64,000 nucleotides of DNA. Source: Euzebya rosea. GTDB lineage: Bacteria; Actinomycetota; Nitriliruptoria; Euzebyales; Euzebyaceae. Below the pieces are notes generated by a model. It was not told where the DNA came from, made no database searches, and saw nothing but the letters and a program-made list of their open reading frames with translations. Position numbers and translations under genes: made by a program. Position 1 is the first letter of the stretch. Each line of letters opens with the position of its first letter. Of the stretch, positions 23,800-25,000 are shown piece after piece. The stretch covers positions 124,001 through 188,000 of the forward strand of contig NZ_PGDQ01000009.1 of the NCBI RefSeq assembly GCF_003073135.1, read 5' to 3'.

Positions 23800-24375
23800 G
23801 TGTTCCGGATCTCCCGACTGCTGCTGGTGGCCCTGGCGTTGCTCGCCGCGGCGTGTGGGTCCTCGGCGCCGGAGTCGTCGGTGGCGGCCCCCGCTGCGAC
23901 CTCCGTGCCGGCTGCCGGCACGAGCGCCGCGACCACCGGCCCGGTGACTCCGGCCGGTGACGTCCCCGAGGCGCTGGCCTTCAGCGCAGCGACCCTCGGT
24001 GGTGGCACCTTCGAGGGGGCGAGCGCGGTCGGCAACGACCTGCTGCTGTGGTTCTGGGCGCCCTGGTGAAGCACCTGCAACCGGGAGGCTCCCGAGGTTG
24101 TGCAGGTTGCGCAGCTGCTTGACGAGGACCAGCGCATCGTGGGCGTCGCTGGACGCGACTCCATCGAGGAGATGGAGGCGTTCGTGGACCGCCACGGCCT
24201 GTCCGACGTGGTCACCATCGCCGACCCCGACAACGTGGTCTGGGACCGCTTCGGGGTGTTCGGCCAGCCCACGTGGGTCTTCGTGAACGGCGAGACGGGT
24301 GAGGCGACCACGCGGTTCGGTGCGCTCGGCCAGCAGGGCGTGCTGGCGGTCTTCGAGAGTGGCGGCTTCGCGTAG
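23800..24375 (+). CDS. Thioredoxin-like lipoprotein with in-frame TGA: putative selenoprotein (UxxC)
   Basis: A single 191-residue frame if TGA at 24067-24069 (codon 90) is read through. Residues 1-19 are a lipoprotein signal peptide with lipobox LAAAC (Cys19); a Ser/Ala/Thr linker follows; residues about 56-191 are a TlpA/DsbE-like thioredoxin fold. The active site reads LLWFWAPW-U-STCNREAPEV, so TGA stands exactly at the first Cys of CxxC (U90, C93). The cis-proline region GQPTWVFV is intact downstream. GTG 23800 has TAGGCT 6 nt upstream, consistent with a leaderless mRNA. Predicted extracytoplasmic thiol-disulfide oxidoreductase. Alternatives: a nonsense mutation or sequencing error (TGC to TGA). 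Confidence 0.78.
24067..24107 (+). promoter_or_regulatory. Candidate bacterial SECIS element following in-frame TGA
   Basis: Directly after the TGA, 24073-24082 (ACCTGCAACC) pairs with 24096-24107 (GGTTGTGCAGGT, a TG bulge), and 24083-24086 GGGA pairs with 24090-24093 TCCC, closing a GGC loop at 24087-24089. The loop begins 18 nt after the TGA and opens with two G residues. Both distance and loop composition fit bacterial SECIS elements recognised by SelB. Pairing was done by eye, not by folding software. Confidence 0.65.
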
Positions 24376-24394
24376 TTCCTGAACGATCGAGGAC

Positions 24395-24472
24395 GGAGTT
24401 CCCCTGCTGCGGACGGGTGTGGAAGGCTTCCGGTCACGCCGTGTCGGCGCCTGATCATCCGAGGGGAACTCC
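24395..24472 (+). promoter_or_regulatory. Leader inverted repeat sequestering the ribosome-binding site of the DUF4333 gene
   Basis: GGAGTTCCCCT at 24395-24405 is the exact complement of AGGGGAACTCC at 24462-24472; the second arm holds the purine-rich GAGGGG site just before the ATG at 24476. Pairing would occlude the ribosome-binding site. The 56-nt loop contains a further perfect small palindrome (GGAAGGCTTCC at 24421). It could be a translational switch or a processing site; no known riboswitch class was recognised. Confidence 0.5.
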
Positions 24473-24475
24473 ACC

Positions 24476-25000
24476 ATGCACCGTCCCACCACCACCCGTG
24501 CCGCTGTCGTGCTGCTGCTCGCCGTCGTCACCTCCGCGTGCTCGTTCAGCTTCTCCATCGGGGGGCTGGACTACGAGGCGCTCGAGGAGGGCATCGCCGA
24601 GGAGCTGAACGCCAGCTACGCCTCGATCGGCCGCAGCGTGGAAGGGGTCGACTGTCCCGAACCGGACGAGGACCCCGGCGTCGGTGACCAGCTCGTGTGC
24701 ACCGCCACCCTGGAGGGCCAGGCCGTCCGGGTTCAGGCCACGGTCGAGGACGAGGACTTCAACGTCACCTTCAACACCCTCGACGTGGTCTACGAGCTGA
24801 CCGACACCGCCGAGCTGCTGGCGGCCGACATCTCCGAGGCCATCGGCGTGCCGGTCAACCTCAACTGCGGTCAGGGCATCACCGTCGTGCCCATCGGTGA
24901 CGGCTTCCAGTGCTCGGCGACCGACGCCGGCGGGGGCACGGCCACGATCCAGGTGACCGCCAACGACATCGAGGACACCTCCTGGGAGATCCTGGAGTAG
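24476..25000 (+). CDS. DUF4333-type lipoprotein with two cysteine pairs
   Basis: A 174-residue predicted lipoprotein: signal peptide with lipobox VTSAC (Cys22), then two repeats of a DUF4333-like module, each with a cysteine pair 15 residues apart (C60/C75 and C131/C146; motifs GVDCPEP...QLVCTATL and NLNCGQG...FQCSATD). DUF4333 proteins are extracytoplasmic and of unknown role, common in actinobacteria. The paired cysteines suggest two disulfides. It lies 100 nt downstream of the thioredoxin-like selenoprotein gene, so it could be a substrate or partner of that enzyme, which is inference. ATG chosen by the signal peptide. Confidence 0.82.
   Translation: MHRPTTTRAAVVLLLAVVTSACSFSFSIGGLDYEALEEGIAEELNASYASIGRSVEGVDCPEPDEDPGVGDQLVCTATLEGQAVRVQATVEDEDFNVTFNTLDVVYELTDTAELLAADISEAIGVPVNLNCGQGITVVPIGDGFQCSATDAGGGTATIQVTANDIEDTSWEILE

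Follow-up and report, generated by a model that had tools for sequence, protein, structure and literature searches.

Background

Bacterial selenocysteine (Sec) decoding relies on an interaction between the messenger and a dedicated factor: as described in the excerpted text of PMC1794560, SelB binds the SECIS and acts with tRNA-Sec at the UGA codon. The extracts used here of the selenoprotein review PMC13188914 give limits for the bacterial element (bSECIS), namely a loop of 3-9 nt that has a G at its first or second position, a stem of at least 4 bp, a spacing between UGA and loop of 16-37 nt and a minimum free energy (MFE) at or below -7.5 kcal/mol. The same extracts catalogue selenoproteins with a UxxC motif, including a Prx-like thiol:disulfide oxidoreductase (PF00578), the Redoxin family (PF08534) and a thiol-disulfide isomerase-like protein (cd02966). 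On the side of the conventional enzymes, the extracts of PMC3853704 present DsbE and DsbF of Mycobacterium tuberculosis as exported oxidoreductases that behave as oxidants in vitro. The gene analysed here, from Euzebya rosea, brings the two subjects together, with homology to DsbF in its product and an in-frame TGA at the active site.

The gene and its product

The gene lies in the window, by which we mean the whole 64-kb stretch of DNA that was analysed, starting at C9:124001 in an assembly of 40 contigs that is 97.63% complete. Its features, in window coordinates, are the following:

23800-24375, + strand: predicted selenoprotein coding sequence (read-through translation), with a GTG start, an in-frame TGA and a TAG stop at 24373-24375
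23800-23856, + strand: putative lipoprotein signal, up to Cys 19 (MFRISRLLLVALALLAAAC), read by eye
24067-24069, + strand: UGA codon, the U of UxxC, probably read as selenocysteine; TGA there in 40 distinct homologues
24076-24078, + strand: TGC codon of the resolving Cys 93 of UxxC, from sequence and alignment

The read-through product has 191 residues, with Sec as residue 90 in the active-site motif WFWAPW-U-STC (context ...LLLWFWAPW-U-STC-NREAPEV...), and the UGA codon occupies the position of the catalytic Cys. The residues up to Cys 19 form what we take, from the familiar pattern, to be a lipobox-type signal. In Pfam the product matches AhpC-TSA, Redoxin and Thioredoxin, and its closest solved relatives are two M. 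tuberculosis proteins, first DsbF (3IOS; E 3.3e-27, residues 54-165 aligned) and second MPT53/DsbE (1LU4; E 1.2e-23, residues 57-165 aligned), that is, homology to this type extends across the thioredoxin domain. The CxxC of DsbF/MPT53-type oxidoreductases is UxxC in the product of 23800-24375, and because of this replacement the protein is, judged from its sequence, a Sec-containing version of the actinobacterial DsbF/MPT53 type rather than a canonical member. An NCBIfam search of the product gave 13 matches, none above its own cut-off, and the WAxxUGC selenoprotein model, which has a different motif, was below cut-off on it. Homology thus characterises the product as a putative exported thiol oxidoreductase, with a predicted surface location and redox activity and, by extension from its homologues, a predicted activity in oxidative folding. 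No functional link to 23800-24375 was found among the gene neighbours within the 64-kb window; the next gene downstream (24476-25000, + strand) encodes a small Cys-containing lipoprotein-like protein.

Probable selenocysteine at the in-frame TGA

It is very likely that the TGA at 24067-24069 is decoded as Sec, since a TGA is kept at that codon in the 40 distinct homologues, which come from many genomes, two of them lying in that of E. rosea itself. A class search (66 genomes, E <= 1e-18) matched 20 of the 66 genomes, with one TGA in 21 of 21 places, a second gene (paralogue) of the source genome included, and a phylum search (396 genomes, E <= 1e-15) showed, among the 50 matches listed, 34 with one TGA and 16 with no stop. 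Neither TAA nor TAG occurs at the active-site codon among the class places and the phylum matches listed. The TGA of the UGA homologues always falls on the first Cys of CxxC, this alignment of an in-frame UGA with the Cys of homologues being characteristic of a selenoprotein, and the Cys 93 codon is TGC or TGT in all aligned UGA homologues. Moreover, the codons 3' of the TGA, compared with the nearest relative, follow a purifying pattern (73 unchanged, 20 with synonymous and 8 with nonsynonymous changes). As a side observation, two loci of one relative (L137 and L147, G208:C154:60448-61698) form a tandem pair, a Cys copy followed by a copy with TGA at the matching place, and in the tree the Cys copy sits amid the Sec forms.

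The source genome holds selA, selB, selC and selD (4/4), two of them on the same contig as the window:

C9:97090-98919: SelB
C9:102238-103533: SelA
contig C2: SelD
contig C6: tRNA-Sec, anticodon TCA

In the class, tRNA-Sec is above the cut-off in 18 of the 20 genomes, the exceptions being G010 and G018, for which a laxer threshold gives 47.7 bits (cut-off 47), a marginal value, and 45 bits, respectively. Among the genomes with the UGA form, tRNA-Sec above the cut-off was not found in G018, G260, G296 and G299. These four and G010 are incomplete assemblies (73-95%); SelD is found in all five, SelB is above the cut-off in G010, G260 and G296 and below it in G018 and G299, and SelA has matches in G010, G018, G260 and G296 and none in G299. 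Sec-SelD is a known selenoprotein, and the SelD genes of G010, G018, G296 and G299 hold one in-frame TGA each, that of the source genome none.

RNA structure downstream of the UGA

Three overlapping or adjacent structures, all in coding sequence, are discussed below:

24073-24107, + strand: 14-bp hairpin of a first-pass annotation; lower stem 24073-24079/24101-24107, not conserved
24082-24094, + strand: upper hairpin CGGGA-GGC-UCCCG, kept in nearer relatives only
24098-24114, + strand: predicted SECIS hairpin H2, 24098-24103 pairing with 24109-24114 around the apical loop AGGUU (24104-24108)

The first-pass annotation, made from the sequence of this stretch, had proposed a SECIS-like stem-loop after the TGA at 24067-24069, in which ACCTGCAACC (24073-24082) pairs with GGTTGTGCAGGT (24096-24107) and GGGA/TCCC forms an upper stem with a GGC loop. 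Bases and positions are correct, including those of the upper stem (24083-24086/24090-24093), and the bulged 14-bp hairpin is the exact MFE structure of the isolated 24073-24107 (-16.7 kcal/mol), remaining the fold of the isolated 24067-24116 (50-64-nt window) at -20.3. Its improbability by chance, also claimed, held modestly against dinucleotide shuffles for the isolated segment (z -2.28, 4/200 as good) but not for longer windows, which were unremarkable (24064-24115, z -1.04; 24040-24120, z -0.37; 24050-24120, z 0.27), and the MFE structure of the 71- and 81-nt windows is a different one. Stability alone is not decisive, because z varies with window length. When the same peptide was recoded under a synonymous-codon null, which preserves the protein and its codon use, 17 of 1000 recodings folded as well as 24073-24107.

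The folds were also compared by conservation. The 31 UGA loci of the first set were split into 18 of the source type and 13 others after the folds had been viewed, and the first counts therefore lean towards the structures. The lower pairs of the drawn hairpin (24073-24079/24101-24107) are formed in 84/126 cells of the 18 homologues, against a synonymous null of 0.66 that is as high in 447/1000 draws, and the expected covariation failed to appear in the 14-pair structure as a whole (77.8% of cells paired, a level reached by 89/500 column shuffles; the covariation score was reached by 214/500). H2, which reuses part of the 3' arm of that hairpin and excludes its lower stem, pairs in 106/108 cells (98%) of the same 18 homologues, with a null of 0.66 and 0/1000 draws as high. 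Its stem of 6 bp extends here to 24096-24116 (9 bp, -10.3 kcal/mol), and an A-U pair may close a GGU loop (A-GGU-U). RNAalifold, unprompted, returned from the 18 sequences the GGG/CCC core of the upper stem and a hairpin at +29..+34/+40..+45 (from the first base after the UGA), which is H2 in the source sequence, and the predicted fold from 24080 onward consists of the upper hairpin and H2 (-17.8). For H2 and the upper stem together, the percentage paired, the two-sided cells (18) and the covariation score were all above 500/500 shuffles, and the number of pairs that change on both sides (399/500 as high) and the number of pair types (359/500) were not. One H2 pair, +33/+41, appears as GC, AU, UA and GU, with at least 6 changes on the tree of the 40 UGA proteins.

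A held-out set of nine UGA loci missed by the motif filter, six of them with Gln at the matching site, is free of the lean introduced by the grouping, since its loci did not define H2, its core being six loci only. In those six, H2 is paired in 35/36 cells (null 23.8, 0/2000), and over all nine in 41/54 (null 30.3, 0/2000). In the 88 Cys homologues that share the motif, the count is 184/528, slightly below their own null, so the structure is kept in the UGA genes and dispensable in Cys homologues, as characterises a bacterial SECIS. Likewise, local RNA structure after the UGA exceeds that of synonymous recodings in the 31 UGA genes (mean z of about -0.8 to -1.5 in the best windows), and no such excess was found after the matching position in 60 Cys genes. 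The local-structure comparison took 60/88 Cys rows and the pair count 88/88; the structure and pair tests omitted seven distant Cys rows (L122-L125, L127, L129, L130), and two further distant Cys forms (L126, L128) were also set aside. An Rfam search of 23800-24400 gave sub-threshold matches only, with no SECIS family. The first-pass annotation was thus right in reading a SECIS after the TGA, a reading now well supported by the Sec machinery, the TGA of the 40 homologues and a structural excess with no counterpart in Cys homologues, but wrong in the lower half of its structure: the element lies partly where it was drawn, in a different fold, and it is the version shifted downstream, 24098-24114, that passes the covariation check.

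Proposed decoding and its alternatives

The interpretation that we favour, and regard as highly probable, is that of an exported selenoprotein whose UGA at 24067 is read via SelB bound mainly to H2, 34 nt downstream. It builds on what is observed in the reading frame, the machinery genes, the conservation of the UGA and the conservation and covariation of H2, to which it adds the putative binding of SelB at H2 and the insertion of Sec itself. Sec-tRNA-Sec, delivered by SelB, would decode the UGA, SelB would bind the A-GGU-U loop of H2 within the coding sequence, and the small GGG/CCC hairpin between the two (24082-24094) may be a spacer or a pause. The outcome would be a surface-anchored thioredoxin-fold oxidoreductase with its nucleophilic Cys replaced by Sec (UxxC). 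When the ribosome stands at the UGA, its mRNA channel covers about the first 12 nucleotides downstream; the lower stem of the drawn hairpin would start inside this channel, and H2 would lie outside it.

The alternative that survives best, although we judge it unlikely, is that the SECIS is the drawn hairpin or its consensus form, with a GGC loop 17 nt after the UGA. The classic E. coli SECIS has a spacing of about 17 as well, and the drawn hairpin, besides being the MFE fold of 24067-24116, fits the bSECIS limits with its GGC loop, a spacing of 17 and -16.7 kcal/mol. Its upper stem is kept in near relatives (six-pair form, +12..+17/+21..+26, 91/108 in the 18 homologues; null 0.52, 0/1000), but falls to the null in the six more distant, held-out ones (16/36 versus 16.4), and the lower stem is at the null with no covariation. 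The shifted consensus form is paired in 179/216 cells against a null of 0.60, yet it was rejected as weaker than H2, having as few as 5 compensatory cells and being incompatible with H2, itself paired in 98%. It is far less probable that a conserved, G+C-rich peptide produces the RNA structure as a side effect: longer windows are indeed as stable as dinucleotide shuffles and no more, but none of 1000 synonymous draws (or of 2000 for the held-out loci) reaches H2, and the 88 Cys homologues, which encode the same motif, stay slightly below the null. Finally, the view that translation really ends at the TGA, or that this codon reflects a pseudogene or an error of sequencing, has standard gene calling on its side, which ends an 89-residue ORF there and opens a separate GTG ORF at 24100, but it is scarcely credible against the TGA in 40 homologues, the conserved codons after it and the Sec machinery.

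Other registers and a second candidate

The hairpin bound by SelB, as proposed above, would not sit at the same distance throughout the family. The other 13 UGA loci of the first set share a hairpin, H3, with a GGUC loop 26 nt after the UGA (+27 to +30) and 89/91 pairs formed; as a fold of the 23800-24375 gene, H3 was rejected (5/7 pairs, 1059/5000 recodings as good). All 40 UGA loci divide into 24 with H2, 15 with H3 and one with neither (L153, in G118), a single sequence whose predicted hairpin places an AGUUG loop 16 nt 3' of the UGA. Across the family, the distance from UGA to loop is thus 16, 26 or 34 nt, and the tree of UGA proteins needs at least 4 register changes, of which well-supported branches force 1.

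Adjoining the Sec paralogue on contig C4, a second protein with an in-frame TGA was found:

L162 5458-6801, - strand (source genome, C4:371960-372553): membrane protein resembling CcdA/DsbD_TM, interrupted in frame by a TGA (FGUTGP)

It scores 26.4 against DsbD_TM, just below the cut-off of 27.1, and carries the motifs FFAPCSFPLL and, later, AGFG-U-TGPILAG. A search of 101 relatives (E <= 1e-10) matched 9 genomes (candidate loci L162 and also L163-L170); the eight best-scoring matches, each from a different genome, have one TGA each, followed by GGCCGGUCUGGCC in 8/8, and the predicted folds after this TGA vary. The CcdA-like protein is likely a second, perhaps uncatalogued, selenoprotein, and its position suggests a Sec-CcdA partner of the paralogue; if so, the two would form an electron relay across the membrane. 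The word CcdA is absent from the accessible text of the review PMC13188914, and none of the open-access papers listed for CcdA plus selenocysteine seems relevant by its title and abstract. The joint proposal, that the SECIS loop (G(G/U)U-type) moved within one family between about 16, 26 and 34 nt and that a Sec-to-Sec relay crosses the membrane via the CcdA-like partner, is a tentative one, which we find possible while leaning slightly against it. A natural series of this kind, with protein and UGA fixed and the SECIS loop from about 16 to 34 nt away, would offer a handle on the binding range of SelB.

Comparison with known systems

With DsbF (3IOS) and MPT53/DsbE (1LU4) the product has the WFW(A/T)PW motif in common, the difference being that both known proteins start the active site with the Cys of CxxC, where the product has a UGA-encoded Sec. 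With the three catalogued selenoproteins it shares UxxC and, for the PF00578 and PF08534 entries, the Pfam families, in a comparison made by their descriptions in the extracts of PMC13188914; those two entries could include this very protein. No description of a Sec form of DsbF or its group was found in the open-access literature searched, and the present gene would add an exported, UGA-encoded thioredoxin-fold family of the actinobacterial DsbF/MPT53 type, one that routine ORF prediction breaks in two at the TGA. There is also a more general lesson, in that a hairpin that is convincing in one genome may turn out, where two folds overlap, to be the incorrect one. H2 resembles the bSECIS model in its small loop with G(G/U)U, in-frame and just 3' of the UGA, and its loop, stem, spacing of 34 and MFE of -10.3 are all within the limits extracted from PMC13188914; it differs in that this spacing is long, near the upper limit of 37, and in that the binding of SelB is here a predicted one.
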